The notes below the pieces were generated by a model. That model worked only from the letters and a program-made list of their open reading frames with translations, ran no database searches and had not been told where the DNA came from. This document shows positions 8,477-13,937 of a stretch of 22,952 nucleotides of DNA, piece by piece. The DNA lies in the IMG/VR virus record IMGVR_UViG_3300046530_000035, positions 1 through 22,952 of that record, one strand, 5' to 3'. This stretch comes from a virus. A program made the position numbers and the translations under genes. Every line of letters starts with the position of its first letter. The first letter of the stretch is position 1.

Positions 8477-9445
8477 TTACTTGGAAGCGTCACCGATCAG
8501 GGCCACGCCAGCGGTGTCCTTGATGCTGGTGGCGGTCTTGTCCCAGTTGGTACCGGTGGCCAGCGCCGCGTTGGACGGAGACTTGCCGCCGTTCGCGGTG
8601 TCCCAGGTGTAACCCTTCAGGCCCAAGCCGAAGGTGTAGTCGGTCTGGATGGTGGTTTCGATGCGCTCTTTGCCGTTGACGGTCTGAACGTTCGAAATGA
8701 TGTCGCGGTTGTCGTGAACCAGCGCAGCGCCGGCCGCCAGAGACAAAATGATCTCTTTGTTCGGAGTGCCGGCCTGAGCCAGAGCCGGGGCGTCGGTAAC
8801 GACGGAGATTTTGCCAAGGATGTCGACGATGCGAACGTTGCCGGCCTGGAACAGCTGCGCAGCGTTGACCAGGTTCTGACCTACCAGCTTGTGGTAGGTG
8901 GTGCCCTGCATGACCTGAGCAATCAGGTTCTGCGAGGCATCGCCGAACTTGGCGTGCGAGTTGTTCAGGGCGGCCTGAGTGATACCGGCGGTGGCAGATA
9001 CATCATTGGTCGCGGCGGCCTGCGCAGTGATCGCGGCAACCAGCGCGGCAATGGCAGTGTTCAGCTGATCTTTCAGCAGAACCTCAGCGAAGGCGCGCGA
9101 TGCGACCTCGACGCCTTGCACGGTCGGGCGCTCCAGCCAGGTCATTTGCGAAGGCTCGTAACGCAGCGGGCCGAAACCGCCAGCAACCTTCACAGTGGTG
9201 TTTTTCAGCTCGGTCAGGTCGGTAACCGACGCCGCACCGTTGGCTGCATTGCGATCCACGCGACGTTGAGCGCCACCTAGAGCACTGAAAAACGACTCTT
9301 GCAGGAAGTCGCCAGTGAAGCCGTCCGGGGACAGGATGATCGCGCCATTGCTGGCAGCGTTGAACGCCGCAAGCATCTGATCCAGGCTTTCCAGCGTGGC
9401 CGGCATGATGAAGTCGTTGAAAACCTGCATTTGTGCAAGGGACAT
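8477..9445 (-). CDS. Major capsid protein
   Basis: This 322-residue protein starts at ATG 9445 (MSLAQMQVFNDF), with AAGGA 8 nt upstream and only 12 nt after the scaffold stop. It has capsid-like features: an N-terminal helix, LLKDQLNTAIAALVAAITAQAA in the middle, and a C-terminal half with TDYTFGLGLKGYTWD. Position straight after a coiled-coil scaffold and after portal/minor head genes makes it the major capsid candidate. No other gene in the window is suited to the role. It looks like the group of phage capsids around 320-340 residues with a separate scaffold; family naming is by eye only. Confidence 0.9.
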   Translation of the reverse strand: MSLAQMQVFNDFIMPATLESLDQMLAAFNAASNGAIILSPDGFTGDFLQESFFSALGGAQRRVDRNAANGAASVTDLTELKNTTVKVAGGFGPLRYEPSQMTWLERPTVQGVEVASRAFAEVLLKDQLNTAIAALVAAITAQAAATNDVSATAGITQAALNNSHAKFGDASQNLIAQVMQGTTYHKLVGQNLVNAAQLFQAGNVRIVDILGKISVVTDAPALAQAGTPNKEIILSLAAGAALVHDNRDIISNVQTVNGKERIETTIQTDYTFGLGLKGYTWDTANGGKSPSNAALATGTNWDKTATSIKDTAGVALIGDASK

Positions 9446-9457
9446 GAAGTGAATCCT

Positions 9458-10165
9458 TTATTTAAGAGGGAGATCCGGGAACTTGCTGGCGATTGCCGCA
9501 GTGCGTTCCGTCTTGGTGCCGCCGATATTGCCTTTTGCGGCCCCGCCGCCATTCCCAGCACCTGAAGCCCCGCCACCAGATGCCTTGCTACCCGCGATCA
9601 ACGGCGCGAAGGCCGTGTCGTTTGCGAATTCTGCTTTCAACTCATCCAGCGTCGCCGCCGAGAGCTTGCCCTGCTGGTCGAGCACGACCACAACAGGCTT
9701 CCCGTCGCGCTGCTCGACGCACAGACGGCGCTCGATGTGCGGCAACAGGGCTTTGGCGCTGCCTGGGATTGCCAGGGCAGACGCGATGTCAGTAGCGGTA
9801 CGGCCGACAGTCAGATCTCTGATCTGTCCACTCAAGCTGCCTCGCTCCTGTTCCAGCATGCCGTTCAGCTCGGCTTCGCGGCGGTTGTACTTTTCCAACC
9901 AAGACTTTTCGAGCTCTTCGACGTTGCCGGACTTGCGAGCCGCCTCTTCGCGTTCGGCGCGGGCTGCGTCCTCAGCTTCGCGACGGGCCTTCTCGGCCGC
10001 TTTCTTCTCGCTCAGCAGCTCCTCGACCTTGGACTTCAGGCCCGATACATCTTCTTGCTGCGGCAAACCTTCAATGCCGAGTACGAACTTGCCGTCCTTC
10101 TCGGTGTAAAGAGCGCGCACGGATTCATCGACACCATCCAGGCTGTCCAGTTGGAATTTCAGCAT
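9458..10165 (-). CDS. Capsid scaffolding protein
   Basis: I start at MLKFQLDSLDGVDESV (ATG 10165), with GGGAG 7 nt upstream, giving 235 residues; a longer open frame upstream crosses two terminator hairpins. Residues about 40-120 form a strongly charged coiled coil (SKVEELLSEKKAAEKA onward), followed by a small conserved-looking segment near 120-180 and a Gly/Ala-rich linker at 195-215. This resembles phage scaffolding proteins, which direct procapsid assembly and then leave or are cleaved. Its position just before the major capsid gene supports the call. The SD belongs to a 47-bp leader that is duplicated at 10,599-10,645. Confidence 0.85.
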   Translation of the reverse strand: MLKFQLDSLDGVDESVRALYTEKDGKFVLGIEGLPQQEDVSGLKSKVEELLSEKKAAEKARREAEDAARAEREEAARKSGNVEELEKSWLEKYNRREAELNGMLEQERGSLSGQIRDLTVGRTATDIASALAIPGSAKALLPHIERRLCVEQRDGKPVVVVLDQQGKLSAATLDELKAEFANDTAFAPLIAGSKASGGGASGAGNGGGAAKGNIGGTKTERTAAIASKFPDLPLK

Positions 10166-10167
10166 TG

Positions 10168-10214
10168 GTTGTCTCCCAGAGACGATTGGCGGACCCAGCC
10201 CGCAGATATGAAAA
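10168..10214. repeat. 47-bp leader repeat, copy A (with scaffold SD)
   Basis: Ungapped alignment with 10,599-10,645 gives 38 of 47 identical bases, beginning GTTGTCTCCCAGAG and ending CAGAT-TGAAAA just before a GC-rich hairpin. In this copy the motif contains the SD of the scaffold gene. Confidence 0.8.
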
Positions 10215-10236
10215 GGCCCCGTCATTGACGAGGCCT
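10214..10236 (-). terminator. Terminator-like hairpin upstream of the scaffold gene
   Basis: AGGCC-CGTC and GACG-GGCCT pair with one mismatch around ATT, and the minus strand continues TTTTC. It is the second of two hairpins between the acidic moron and the scaffold SD. Confidence 0.6.
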
Positions 10237-10253: not shown

Positions 10254-10278
10254 AAAAAACCCCGGCGGGCTGCCAGGG
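10254..10278 (-). terminator. Terminator downstream of the acidic moron
   Basis: CCC-GGC and GCC-GGG arms with one bulged base are followed on the minus strand by six T residues. It lies 60-90 bases after the 52-residue gene's stop. Confidence 0.6.
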
Positions 10279-10340
10279 CTTGATTCAAAAATGTGGGCCT
10301 GTGCGAATGGGTGGGCCTTTTGGGTGTTAAGTTTTTCGTT

Positions 10341-10499
10341 TCAGTCGTCTTGATCTATCTGATCAAGAAAATCAACGTCATCGTCTTCCTCGTCAGCAAT
10401 TGCCTGAGCGCCTTCTTCAACCCATGACTCGTCATCATGGAATTCATGATCGAGCAGGTGGTCGTGCTCGGGCTCTGGAATATCTCGTTCTTCGCTCAT
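10341..10499 (-). CDS. 52-residue highly acidic protein, accessory (moron) gene
   Basis: ATG 10499 opens a 52-codon frame beginning MSEERDIPEP and ending in a D/E-rich tail with FLDQIDQDD. It holds 14 Asp and 10 Glu (24 of 52), one Arg, no Lys and four His, giving a predicted net charge near -23. There is no transmembrane segment or signal peptide. A good sigma70-like promoter lies 32 bp upstream and terminators lie downstream; the SD (GGTAAG) is weak. It sits between the minor head and scaffold genes, a junction where Pseudomonas phages often carry accessory genes, including anti-CRISPRs. Nucleic-acid mimicry is a reasonable hypothesis from composition only; I do not recognise a family. Confidence 0.72.
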   Translation of the reverse strand: MSEERDIPEPEHDHLLDHEFHDDESWVEEGAQAIADEEDDDVDFLDQIDQDD

Positions 10500-10530
10500 G
10501 ACTTACCGAAACAAAAAGGAAAGAACGGAC

Positions 10531-10559
10531 TGTATATGTAGATCTTTTCCCTCAGTCAA
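10531..10559 (-). promoter_or_regulatory. Predicted sigma70 promoter of the acidic moron
   Basis: Minus-strand TTGACT (10,554-10,559) and TATACA (10,531-10,536) are separated by exactly 17 bp. The predicted start near 10,524 leaves a short leader of about 25 nt before ATG 10499. Confidence 0.68.
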
Positions 10560-10598
10560 CGATCACGAAACTACGACGTGTTCACGGAATAGCTTGGC

Positions 10599-10645
10599 GT
10601 TGTCTCCCAGAGTCGGTTTGCAGGCCCTGCACCCAGATGTGAAAA
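10599..10645. repeat. 47-bp leader repeat, copy B (no gene attached)
   Basis: This is the second copy of the scaffold leader, including the GGGAGACAAC SD-like core on the minus strand, but no start codon follows it. It abuts a terminator hairpin just as copy A does, suggesting the whole 'leader plus terminator' unit was duplicated. Confidence 0.78.
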
Positions 10646-10666
10646 ACCCCGCACCTGGCGGGGTTT
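10645..10666 (-). terminator. Strong terminator between the two moron cassettes
   Basis: AACCCCGC, a 5-nt loop and GCGGGGTT form a perfect stem followed on the minus strand by a T run. It separates the membrane moron from the promoter of the acidic moron. Confidence 0.75.
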
Positions 10667-10675
10667 GAGGTAATG

Positions 10676-10711
10676 CGCGACACGAAACGCGGATTGCCGT
10701 TTCGTGTCGCG
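10676..10711. repeat. Perfect 14-bp inverted repeat, CGCGACAC-type dyad, copy 1 (intergenic)
   Basis: CGCGACACGAAACG (10,676-10,689) and its exact reverse complement (10,698-10,711) flank an 8-nt loop CGGATTGC. No T tract follows on either strand, so it is not a standard terminator. The outer 8-bp arms, 28-bp arm-to-arm register and a TTGCC core recur at 22,031-22,066. Confidence 0.8.
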
Positions 10712-10746
10712 GATTAATAAAAAACGTAAATTGACTCAGAATTGAA

Positions 10747-10774: not shown

Positions 10775-11386
10775 TTATGGCAGGCTAAGCTTTGCGGCTG
10801 TCTCCCTCATTCTGAAAAGACCTTTAGACAGATGGCCTTCCCAGTAACCCGTCGTAGTGTTCACGACAAATTTCAGACCGTCTGTGCGATTACCGCAGTG
10901 CTCAAGCACAAACTGGGCGATTTGAATTTCCGCACCCGCCTGAAGATGAATACTTGCTCGTTGGCCATATTCAAGGCGAACGGGCAATTTATCGGGAGAA
11001 TGTTGAGCAAGGTCAGTTATTTGCACTCGCATTTTGCTGTGCGGTGAAGTCACATTCAGACCTGTGACAGTGACAGGTCTCTTTCCTTCGGACGTTAGCT
11101 CTACAGAAATAAACGGCAGCCCATAGAATCCTGGACCCACTGGAAAACTGGCATTGGCGACGACCTTAAGCAGTTCGGCATCTTCCCGACGCTGCTTATC
11201 TGCAAGCAACAAGGTGACTATCACTGCCAAAAGCGCTCCAATCCCTGATACCCAATCTCCAGCACTTCCCCAGTTCGGCACAAACCGTACCGTCGACTCA
11301 GGGTTCATATTTATGCCGGCTGTGAGCCCTAGGAACCCGCAAATAACACATGCGGCGACACCGCATAGAACCAAAATCCAGTTCAT
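10775..11386 (-). CDS. Two-helix membrane protein with soluble C-terminal domain, accessory (moron) gene
   Basis: This 203-residue protein starts at ATG 11386 with AGGAGG 5 nt upstream. It has hydrophobic segments at about 4-25 (WILVLCGVAACVICGFLG) and 48-62 (GIGALLAVIVTLLLA), the second followed by KQRRED. A soluble domain of about 135 residues follows, with beta-type segments such as LPFISVELTSEGKRPVTVTG and, near the end, FVVNTTTGYWEGHLSKG. A basic stretch after helix 2 suggests the soluble part faces the cytoplasm. It interrupts the minor head-scaffold junction, has its own promoter and a downstream terminator, and is therefore likely expressed from the prophage. Superinfection exclusion is a common job for such proteins but is only an inference. 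I do not recognise the family. Confidence 0.82.
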   Translation of the reverse strand: MNWILVLCGVAACVICGFLGLTAGINMNPESTVRFVPNWGSAGDWVSGIGALLAVIVTLLLADKQRREDAELLKVVANASFPVGPGFYGLPFISVELTSEGKRPVTVTGLNVTSPHSKMRVQITDLAQHSPDKLPVRLEYGQRASIHLQAGAEIQIAQFVLEHCGNRTDGLKFVVNTTTGYWEGHLSKGLFRMRETAAKLSLP

Positions 11387-11442: not shown

Positions 11443-12513
11443 TTAAATGCCAGCGCGCTTGAACATTTCCGGTTCAAGTTCGCGCATGCGGTCCAGGGTG
11501 ATGGGCTTAAAGCTCTTCCCCAGCTGCAGGGCGGCGAACCTGTCAGCGTCGAGGCCGCCATTCATCAGCAGCTTGGCGCGGTTCGGGCCGATGGCCAGTT
11601 CGATGAAACTCATCGGCTGGGTCTTCAGCCAGGCGTAATACGTGAGGCTCGCCGGCACCTGGCCGTTGACGCTCGCCCGGGTCGCGCCTTTGCTGAACAT
11701 CTGGCTGAACTTGGTCAGAAGGATGAAGCTGGTGCGGCAGCTCGGGTGGAACGGTGGCCGGGGCCCTGAGTCGACCGGGTAGACCTGCTGATCGATCGAT
11801 CTACACAACGGCGTCGTCTTGCTGTCCAGGGTGGCGATCAGTTGCACACCGGTGACGAACTCGTCGTTCGCCTTGGCAACCTCATTGCGCGCCTGGCTGG
11901 CGACATGCTGCACCGACGTGCGCACCACCGTGCCGGCATTGCGTTCGGTCGTGGCCAGGATGCCGTCGGAGTAGGCGAGCGCCTTGGTGCCGCGGATCTG
12001 TCGGACTATCTCGGCGTTGGTCTGGCCCTCGAACCAGCCTTGTCGAATCGCCCCGCTGATCTTCTCGACCTCGGAGCTAGACCAGTCCTTGATGAAGGAC
12101 TCAAGCAGCTTGCCGCCGCCATTGCCCTTGATGCTGAGCGGGTTCTTGAAGGCTGCGGTCCTGAGTGTCAGGAGCGCCGGAACGGCCGCATCGAGGCTGA
12201 TACCGACCGGCAACGTATTGGTCAGCAGCTTGGCCTCAAAGCTGGCCTGCGACTGCGCAATGTCCATCAAGTCGAGCTGCATCTGATCGGTGTAGCGGCC
12301 GAGAATTTCAGTCAGTACCGCATCGACTTCATTCAGCAGCTTGTCCAGGCGCGCCCGGGTGAAGCTGGTCAGCTCATCGCCGCTCAGCCGCTCCCTGATG
12401 CTCTGGTCGATCTTCACCAGGAAGGGGCTAAACTTCTTCGCCTCTCCCGACTTTAGCCGCTCCAGCATGACCATGTTGCGGATGCTGCTATCCAGCTGCT
12501 CGATGGTCGTCAT
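11443..12513 (-). CDS. Minor head / head morphogenesis protein (Mu gpF / SPP1 gp7 type)
   Basis: This 356-residue protein starts at ATG 12513, overlapping the portal stop as TGATG; a TTG one codon earlier is not needed. The long helical N-terminus is followed by the family motif LDSKTTPLCRSIDQQVY (229-245) and PPFHPSCRTS (253-262). C237, H256 and C259 are the typical Cys/His set of the Mu gpF/SPP1 gp7 domain. Such proteins occur in a few copies in the head, often associated with the portal, and act in head assembly or DNA ejection. Position after the portal gene is canonical. The last bases of the gene abut a promoter for the next (accessory) gene. Confidence 0.93.
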   Translation of the reverse strand: MTTIEQLDSSIRNMVMLERLKSGEAKKFSPFLVKIDQSIRERLSGDELTSFTRARLDKLLNEVDAVLTEILGRYTDQMQLDLMDIAQSQASFEAKLLTNTLPVGISLDAAVPALLTLRTAAFKNPLSIKGNGGGKLLESFIKDWSSSEVEKISGAIRQGWFEGQTNAEIVRQIRGTKALAYSDGILATTERNAGTVVRTSVQHVASQARNEVAKANDEFVTGVQLIATLDSKTTPLCRSIDQQVYPVDSGPRPPFHPSCRTSFILLTKFSQMFSKGATRASVNGQVPASLTYYAWLKTQPMSFIELAIGPNRAKLLMNGGLDADRFAALQLGKSFKPITLDRMRELEPEMFKRAGI

Positions 12514-13937
12514 CAATCACCGCCAAGGGCCAGGCCCGCCGCGCTGGACTCCAGTTCGCCCCGGATTTCCTCGTCGGTCTTCTCGGCGTCGATCACCCCG
12601 CGATCACGCAGGTATTGCCAGAAGTCCGACTCAGGCATGCGACCGGCCTGCACGGCATTGAACAGGGCGGACATGATCGCTGCGTCCAGGCTGACCTGGG
12701 TGAAGTCCTGATTGATCTTGTAGACGGTCTCGCCTGGGGCGTTCGAAAATTCAGCCATCCAGGCCAGGCACTGACTATATGCCTCGCTGACATTGCTCAC
12801 GATCAGCGACAGGACGCTATGGTCGGCGGCGCTGTCATTGTCAGCCTGGGTTGCGGTCTTCACCGCTCTTCCTCGTTCGGTCAGTCGGGCACCGAGGGAG
12901 ACCATGTCGTCTCTCTTGGCGTCCATGGCCTCTTTTACGAGCGTGTTTGGCTCAGGCTGGGCGAATCCGCACGACCCATCCTTTGGTAGAGTGAGAGGCG
13001 CACGGGATCCGACATAGATGCCGTTTGCCTCCAGGTGATCGCGCCAAGCCTCGTCGAGCCCAGAAATCCAGAATTGAGGCTGCCCGGCAAAGTAGGCCGA
13101 ATCCTCATAGTCCGCACTGTTGTGATAATGGCCAATGTTGATCTCGGCCATGTCATACAACGGAGAGTCGTCTATCGAAGGGTCGTTGTTCTCGCTGCCG
13201 AGGAATTGGAAAGGGATCACGCGCCACGGCTGGCCGAGGCCATTCAGCGGGGCAAATGGCGCGGTGACCATTGCCGTCTGGCTGGAGCCCTCTTCCCATA
13301 CCTCTTGCGTATAAACGCCGGCGGCATCCAGCCGTAGCACCCGGTATTGGACAATCTGCTCGCTACCAAATCCGTCATCGGTGTCGACATCCACCGTCTC
13401 GCGCAACACGACCAGGCTCAGCATGTGCTGGCCGCCGACTTGGCGAGTCTTCCAGTTGATGATGGCTTCAGCCGGGTAGCTGCCAATGTTCGCCCGTGCA
13501 CGACCGGATTGTTCATCCGCTTTGCTCACGGTGCCAGCTTCGACAGCGACGTAATCTACCAGTAGCCCATGCCGGCCGACTTCGAGTAGATGCCCGGTAA
13601 CCGACTGCGATTGCTGATAGATGCTCACGCCTTGCCCATCGATGTCTTTCGACACGTAGTCCAGAGCACCGGGAACGGTCAGCGTGGGCCAGGTCCGAAA
13701 CGCCGCCCCGACCAGACTATGCTTCGTCCGGCCGGTGGCGTTGTAGAACACCGCGCGCTTCTTGTAATCCTCATAGCGGGCCTTGTTATCGGCGCTCACA
13801 TCAGTAGAGTTAGGTCGCGGCAAGTACAGGTCGCCAGCCGCCTTGATGGTTTCCGAGCCTTTGCAGACGTCGCGCACCAAGCGCCAGCAGTTTTTCGCCG
13901 CGACGTACTCGGGGCGGGTGAAAGTGACGTCTGCCAT
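12513..13937 (-). CDS. Portal protein (DUF4055-type)
   Basis: This 474-residue protein starts at ATG 13937, overlapping the terminase stop as TAATG. It has the DUF4055 portal layout: VTFTRPEYVAAKNCWRLVRD at the N-terminus, YKKRAVFYNATGRTKHSLVG, SYPAEAIINWKTRQV, RVIPFQFLGSENNDPSID and YHNSADYEDSAYFAGQPQFW. Portal proteins form the dodecameric DNA gate at one capsid vertex and dock the terminase. Gene order TerS-TerL-portal-minor head supports the call. The C-terminal 60 residues are acidic and probably lie in the head interior or crown. Confidence 0.94.
   Translation of the reverse strand: MADVTFTRPEYVAAKNCWRLVRDVCKGSETIKAAGDLYLPRPNSTDVSADNKARYEDYKKRAVFYNATGRTKHSLVGAAFRTWPTLTVPGALDYVSKDIDGQGVSIYQQSQSVTGHLLEVGRHGLLVDYVAVEAGTVSKADEQSGRARANIGSYPAEAIINWKTRQVGGQHMLSLVVLRETVDVDTDDGFGSEQIVQYRVLRLDAAGVYTQEVWEEGSSQTAMVTAPFAPLNGLGQPWRVIPFQFLGSENNDPSIDDSPLYDMAEINIGHYHNSADYEDSAYFAGQPQFWISGLDEAWRDHLEANGIYVGSRAPLTLPKDGSCGFAQPEPNTLVKEAMDAKRDDMVSLGARLTERGRAVKTATQADNDSAADHSVLSLIVSNVSEAYSQCLAWMAEFSNAPGETVYKINQDFTQVSLDAAIMSALFNAVQAGRMPESDFWQYLRDRGVIDAEKTDEEIRGELESSAAGLALGGD

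Follow-up and report, generated by a model that had tools for sequence, protein, structure and literature searches.

Morons are a known type of phage cargo, in which one ORF, equipped with a promoter and a terminator of its own, is found between genes that otherwise adjoin. In Pseudomonas aeruginosa, the RGP ORFs of the Mu-like phages are of this type: they have a lower G+C content, vary between phages, and occur at a site by the head genes that also harbors anti-CRISPR genes (PMC4378225). More precisely, RGP G holds anti-CRISPR genes, and its label stands immediately ahead of that of RGP H, a region located between the protease-scaffold and the major head genes (PMC4378225). Several small proteins of phages and other mobile elements can also be used for comparison. 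The anti-CRISPR (Acr) proteins AcrIF2 and AcrIF10, which are DNA mimics, are small and acidic and occur at accessory sites of Pseudomonas mobile elements. Ocr (gp0.3) of phage T7 is another small and acidic phage protein. LUZ24 gp4, an inhibitor of MvaT, is a tiny Pseudomonas phage protein of 46 aa, but is basic (pI 10.5, PMC8501957).

Here, we analyzed a stretch of viral DNA of 22,952 nucleotides (the window) where an ORF named P0001 encodes a short and very acidic protein. The features of morons are found at this locus: insertion between genes that adjoin in relatives, an own promoter, an own terminator, and a divergent composition. The locus differs from the morons of Mu-like phages in that the phage group has a Gp13-like capsid and a DUF4055 portal. 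It also differs in that the cargo comes from a host chromosomal family, the same unit of promoter and ORF recurring at scattered chromosomal sites. While the type of cargo is thus known, the protein family itself appears to be undescribed.

An acidic gene at a variable junction between head genes

P0001 (MSEERDIPEPEHDHLLDHEFHDDESWVEEGAQAIADEEDDDVDFLDQIDQDD) lies on the minus strand at positions 10341–10499, with its ATG start at 10499 and its stop at 10341, and is supported by the ORF call, its translation, its relatives, and the selection acting on it. The product is a small, low-complexity protein of 52 aa with 24 Asp or Glu, one Arg, and no Lys, resulting in a calculated charge of around -23. 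This agrees with an initial annotation of the window, which had pointed to a 52-residue frame with 46% of acidic residues. The fraction of Asp and Glu (0.46) is the highest among the 195 ORFs of the window with at least 40 aa, the runner-up having 0.27, and P0001 is alone in reaching 24 acidic residues among the 15,009 stop-free stretches of 52 residues in the six frames of the window.

Along the minus strand, the genes run from the portal through the Mu F-like head protein, an ORF of 203 aa, and the acidic ORF to the scaffold and the Gp13-like major capsid (8477–9445). The junction is anchored upstream by the Mu F-like minor head or head morphogenesis gene (11443–12516, minus strand) and downstream by the head scaffold gene (9458–10165, minus strand; phrog_206, E 2e-59). 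The initial annotation had the acidic gene breaking the junction between minor head and scaffold genes, which is correct regarding the position, but there are two accessory genes at this place and not one. The second is the 203-aa ORF (10775–11386, minus strand; weak match to phrog_16957, E 3e-4), which has a hydrophobic N-terminus and for which three other loci (L020, L157, and L025) carry homologues at the junction or close to it.

To describe the junction across related phages, we used 80 phage loci (L136–L215) found via the scaffold protein; Mu F and scaffold are both visible in 75 of them. Fourteen of these 75 junctions are empty (45–52 bp), three measure 61–130 bp, and the inserts of the other 58 are longer than 300 bp, with many unrelated ORFs. 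Judged by its gene content, the site is a variable accessory ("moron") hot spot for cargo. The cargo in L136–L215 includes, e.g., a 134-aa ORF in five loci, one of 105 aa in four, and one of 96 aa in four. The comparison made earlier with a head-gene site of Pseudomonas phages known for anti-CRISPR cargo is a fair one, as exemplified by RGP G (PMC4378225). The acidic unit has 45% G+C, versus 61% in the two flanking head genes, Mu F-like and scaffold.

The position of the gene is shared by its homologues in other phages, since the phage copies of the family lie directly 5' of the scaffold gene. A syntenic prophage copy is present in L020. In L006 (5661–6700), an additional insert of around 700 bp separates the acidic gene from the scaffold gene. 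Several decayed prophages in Pseudomonas chromosomes (L018, L022/L014, L025, L050) retain the acidic gene with the phage leader; the scaffold region is broken or gone in several of these remnants, and the acidic gene of the L050 remnant is truncated. One might have expected, from its position between head genes, that P0001 is a phage peptide with a role in virion structure or head assembly. This is very improbable, because most related phages lack the gene, having an empty junction or other cargo instead, and because the gene occurs in host chromosomes far from head genes and has its own promoter. We rejected a virion protein on this distribution across phages and chromosomes.

The acidic gene has a putative promoter on the minus strand (10531–10559), identified by sequence and by comparison. 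It consists of a -35 box TTGACT (10554–10559), a spacer of 17, and a -10 box TATACA (10531–10536), with transcription predicted to start near 10523–10525. The pattern TTGA[CT]-17-TATA[CT]A is found in 79 of 92 homologous upstream regions, versus 67 of 18600 (0.36%) random control windows from the same contigs. Among the 75 distinct regions bearing the promoter, the spacer is 17 in all and the -10 box is TATACA in 67. The predicted element is strongly supported as a conserved promoter of the sigma-70 type. A consensus scanner missed it because its -10 box ends in A. The -10 region has a partly palindromic sequence (e.g., GGGCACGCATATACAGGTGCCC and CGCCTATACAGGCG) in L029, L033, and the putida-type loci, a possible operator; arm length and spacing of these palindromes, identified by eye, vary between groups.

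Terminator-like hairpins flank the gene, all on the minus strand. One is 3' of the acidic ORF and followed by T6 (10257–10281, -16.7 kcal/mol), a second is within the leader of the scaffold gene (10214–10236, -17.4 kcal/mol, z -6.6), and another, upstream, would insulate the acidic gene from the preceding genes (10644–10666, -16 kcal/mol). The initial annotation, which had described a TTGACT-17-TATACA promoter just upstream and terminators on the flanks, is thus borne out on both points. The 203-aa ORF is followed by a long hairpin (10671–10716, minus strand, -27.3 kcal/mol, z -6.9) with 19-nt arms that are 95% complementary; in the closest junctions without a gene (L141, L181), Mu F is followed by a similar hairpin.

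The acidic unit is bracketed by two copies of the scaffold-gene leader. In this 52-nt direct repeat, copy 2 (10168–10219, minus strand) is the leader of the scaffold gene itself and ends with GTCTCTGGGAGACAA, while copy 1 (10599–10650, minus strand) is 79% identical to it and upstream of the unit. The same bracketing is found in L004, L009, L010, L011, L015, and L018, whereas the scaffold leader stands alone in gene-free junctions. These repeats look like the result of an insertion via recombination at the leader.

A conserved protein with an invariant motif and a variable tail

Close relatives of P0001 are encoded in 15 viral contigs and, in Pseudomonas, in 80 loci retained from the 97 that were found. 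Across 20 distinct 52-codon sequences of the family, pS is 0.37 and pN is 0.047, giving a pN/pS of around 0.13. When the analysis is restricted to codons 1–20, for which 79 distinct sequences are available, pS is 0.74 and pN is 0.10. Since the ORF is small and of low complexity, one could suspect a chance open frame, or a regulatory RNA taken for a gene. This is hardly conceivable given the comparative data, which already refute it: the protein is conserved through many synonymous changes, as are the start, the stop, and the promoter. We rejected the chance frame because of this selection and conservation, and the regulatory RNA because a search of Rfam gave no match above the gathering score. 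A frame lacking conservation or interrupted by internal stops, which the initial annotation had named as evidence against it, was looked for among the relatives, and the gene withstood this check. Comparative sequence analysis thus indicates that the acidic ORF is a real and conserved gene.

The most conserved part of the protein is the core motif EPEHDHLLDHEF, at residues 9–20 (codons at 10440–10475, minus strand), delimited from the 79 distinct sequences and from more distant HMM matches. Residues 9–17, 19, and 20 (EPEHDHLLD.EF) are identical across the 79 distinct sequences, an invariance that is inflated, and partly a search effect, by the retrieval of relatives with exact 8-residue words (seeds). 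Weak HMM matches in whole genomes, obtained with a profile for which no exact-word requirement is stated, still read EPEH[DE]HLLDHEF followed by an acidic tail. The tail of the family has 43–54% of Asp and Glu, whole proteins range from 50 to 68 aa, and Lys is absent from 85 of 87 members. A phage copy in L015 (8001–8183) encodes 61 aa following an in-frame expansion of the tail rich in Asp and Glu, suggesting that tail length is tolerated.

The composition of the motif also raises the hypothesis of metal binding or sensing, in which the His/Asp/Glu cluster of EPEHDHLLDHEF would bind a metal (Zn, Ni, Cu, or Mn), with additional capacity provided by the acidic tail. In agreement with this, H12, H14, E9, E11, D17, and E19 are invariant and H18 is found in 68 of the 79 distinct sequences. 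Yet, P10, L15, L16, and F20 match the His residues in invariance, which is more like a binding epitope. Moreover, we noticed no metal operon among the neighbors of the chromosomal copies, which are instead DoxX-like, tRNA-Leu, sensor kinase and KaiC-like, LysR, or transporter genes. We regard a metal-binding His cluster as rather unlikely, even if it is the main competitor of the reading of the motif as a docking segment.

We searched for similarity to known families. No family of Pfam or PHROG matches any of the 21 sampled members, and there was no family match in NCBIfam and PADLOC for the members tested, nor in the PDB. A near-match to PDB 7t5v/7t5w over the EPEH.HLLD segment has an E-value of 0.07, is not significant, and was treated as chance; the matched fragment of an HTH protein is presumably from the CBASS regulator CapH. 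Searches of P0001 against the INPHARED phages (tblastn), and of the unit of around 245 bp described below against phages and plasmids (blastn), gave no match, which are weak negatives because the low-complexity filter may hide the query. From these comparisons, there appears to be an undescribed family of small acidic Pseudomonas proteins with the motif EPEH[DE]HLLDHEF. P0001 has its features, i.e., the motif close to the N-terminus, the acidic tail, and the TTGAC-17-TATACA promoter.

A family of Pseudomonas chromosomes probably exchanged with phages

To assess the distribution of the family, we relied on a sample of phages and genomes, and the genomes were searched with a profile. We identified members in 83 of the 399 sampled Pseudomonas species, nearly always in single copy, and in none of 368 genomes of other Gammaproteobacteria. 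A common chromosomal locus (L065 10001–14600 and around 30 similar ones) comprises the acidic gene, a convergent DoxX-like gene, a tRNA-Leu, a PAS sensor kinase, a KaiC-like gene, and a response regulator, the names of neighbors being assigned by eye from translations. The loci at this shared DoxX/tRNA-Leu place are mostly from the P. putida group, according to species names, and in P. fluorescens-type genomes the gene is found at unrelated places.

The homology between the window and the scattered chromosomal copies usually spans from -67 to -86 up to +158 to +179 relative to the ATG. Its edges delimit a shared unit of promoter and ORF of around 245 bp (10337–10585, minus strand). In a tree of this unit, phage and chromosomal copies are mixed in one clade (support 100/100) and the deeper branches are all chromosomal. 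Hence, the phage copies are nested, in this tree, inside the chromosomal diversity. The simplest reading would be a capture from the host followed by several exchanges, a direction of transfer that rests on a short tree of weak resolution, in which 12 of the 33 inner branches are open. For one chromosomal copy (L021), a search with joined flanks for an empty site matched each flank, with no match across the join among the matches listed.

What the acidic protein may do

The model of P0001 by AlphaFold2 has a pLDDT of 68, a pTM of 0.16, and almost no secondary structure, a low confidence that is no proof of disorder with 36 related sequences and is compatible with an oligomeric, partner-dependent, or metal-dependent fold. 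A charge-hydropathy estimate places P0001 far on the disordered side, beyond Ocr. T7 Ocr is a folded dimer, whereas P0001 lacks a predicted fold and is also a host gene. The two differ further in length (117 aa versus 52 aa) and in net charge per residue, which is lower in Ocr, and a direct comparison revealed no sequence similarity between them. More generally, we found no sequence or profile similarity to mimics of the Ocr/ArdA type, be it with Ocr directly or with the family against Pfam, NCBIfam, and the PDB. Such a mimic would be expected to have a folded scaffold with DNA-like charges at fixed spacing; here the pTM is 0.16 and lengths vary from 50 to 68 aa, even if models of low confidence permit folding.

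These results bear on the function proposed by the initial annotation, a DNA mimic acting as anti-CRISPR or anti-restriction protein. Such an Ocr- or AcrIF2-like counter-defence protein would display a DNA-like charge surface, in line with a charge of around -23 in 52 residues and with an accessory site by head genes comparable to the anti-CRISPR-bearing RGP G (PMC4378225). Small size and low pI are also associated with DNA-mimic Acrs (PMC7648647). However, a search against the known Acr families gave no PHROG, NCBIfam, PADLOC, or PDB match, in libraries that may not hold every Acr family. In contrast to AcrIF2 and AcrIF10, P0001 matches no family and has no adjoining aca, with no aca-like HTH gene between the acidic gene and the scaffold. 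It is also widespread as an isolated chromosomal gene, and a family that is nearly always in single copy and mainly chromosomal in many Pseudomonas fits poorly a dedicated phage counter-defence gene. Furthermore, the tail length and the positions of charges vary, and the lack of a predicted fold fits a rigid DNA mimic poorly. The part of the initial annotation concerning a real, conserved, and independently promoted accessory gene is therefore strengthened, and its guess of a DNA mimic or counter-defence protein is downgraded: it is possible, from charge and position, but unlikely.

Small phage proteins often target the machinery of transcription or translation. P0001 might accordingly be a regulator that acts by binding RNA polymerase or a sigma factor, a nucleoid protein (for instance HU or MvaT), or a ribosomal factor. 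The range of the family, restricted to one genus, fits a co-evolution with a Pseudomonas partner, and this hypothesis overlaps with the explanation we prefer, for which it would name the partner. Still, each of these partners is a candidate only, and the MvaT inhibitor LUZ24 gp4, in spite of its similar length, is a basic coiled coil (pI 10.5, PMC8501957) that showed no similarity to P0001 in a direct comparison. We consider any such specific target improbable.

The combination of a motif with an acidic tail of variable length and no predicted fold suggests a binding to host proteins guided by the motif, rather than a rigid mimic of the Ocr type. Our preferred explanation, which in our estimate falls just short of probable, is that P0001 belongs to a moron-type unit of around 245 bp derived from the host. 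This unit of promoter and ORF would have entered the scaffold-gene leader of the phage, where its own sigma-70-type promoter could drive its transcription in the lysogen, with terminators as insulation. Through the near-invariant N-terminal motif EPEHDHLLDHEF, the protein would dock onto a conserved protein of Pseudomonas. The tail, probably disordered in the cell, may occupy or shield, in the manner of a polyanion, a basic surface of this partner, probably one that binds nucleic acids. The prophage copy would then supplement or replace the chromosomal one, to the benefit of the lysogen. Beyond this locus, we tentatively suggest that the family could represent a class of polyanionic regulators specific to Pseudomonas, built from a near-invariant 12-residue docking motif and a disordered acidic tail of adjustable length, and encoded in a minimal unit of around 245 bp shuttling between host chromosomes and phage accessory sites, with which a phage may retune one conserved host machine during lysogeny.

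The Mu F–scaffold junction is a likely source of uncharacterized phage cargo genes, and what is at stake with the one described here is whether phage ORFans should be taken for DNA mimics when they are acidic. Around one fifth of the sampled Pseudomonas species keep the family, nearly always as one copy and under strong selection at the protein level. With its near-invariant 12-residue motif and conserved promoter, it lends itself readily to pull-down experiments. An answer on its function would show what a phage gains from carrying its host's own tiny acidic protein.
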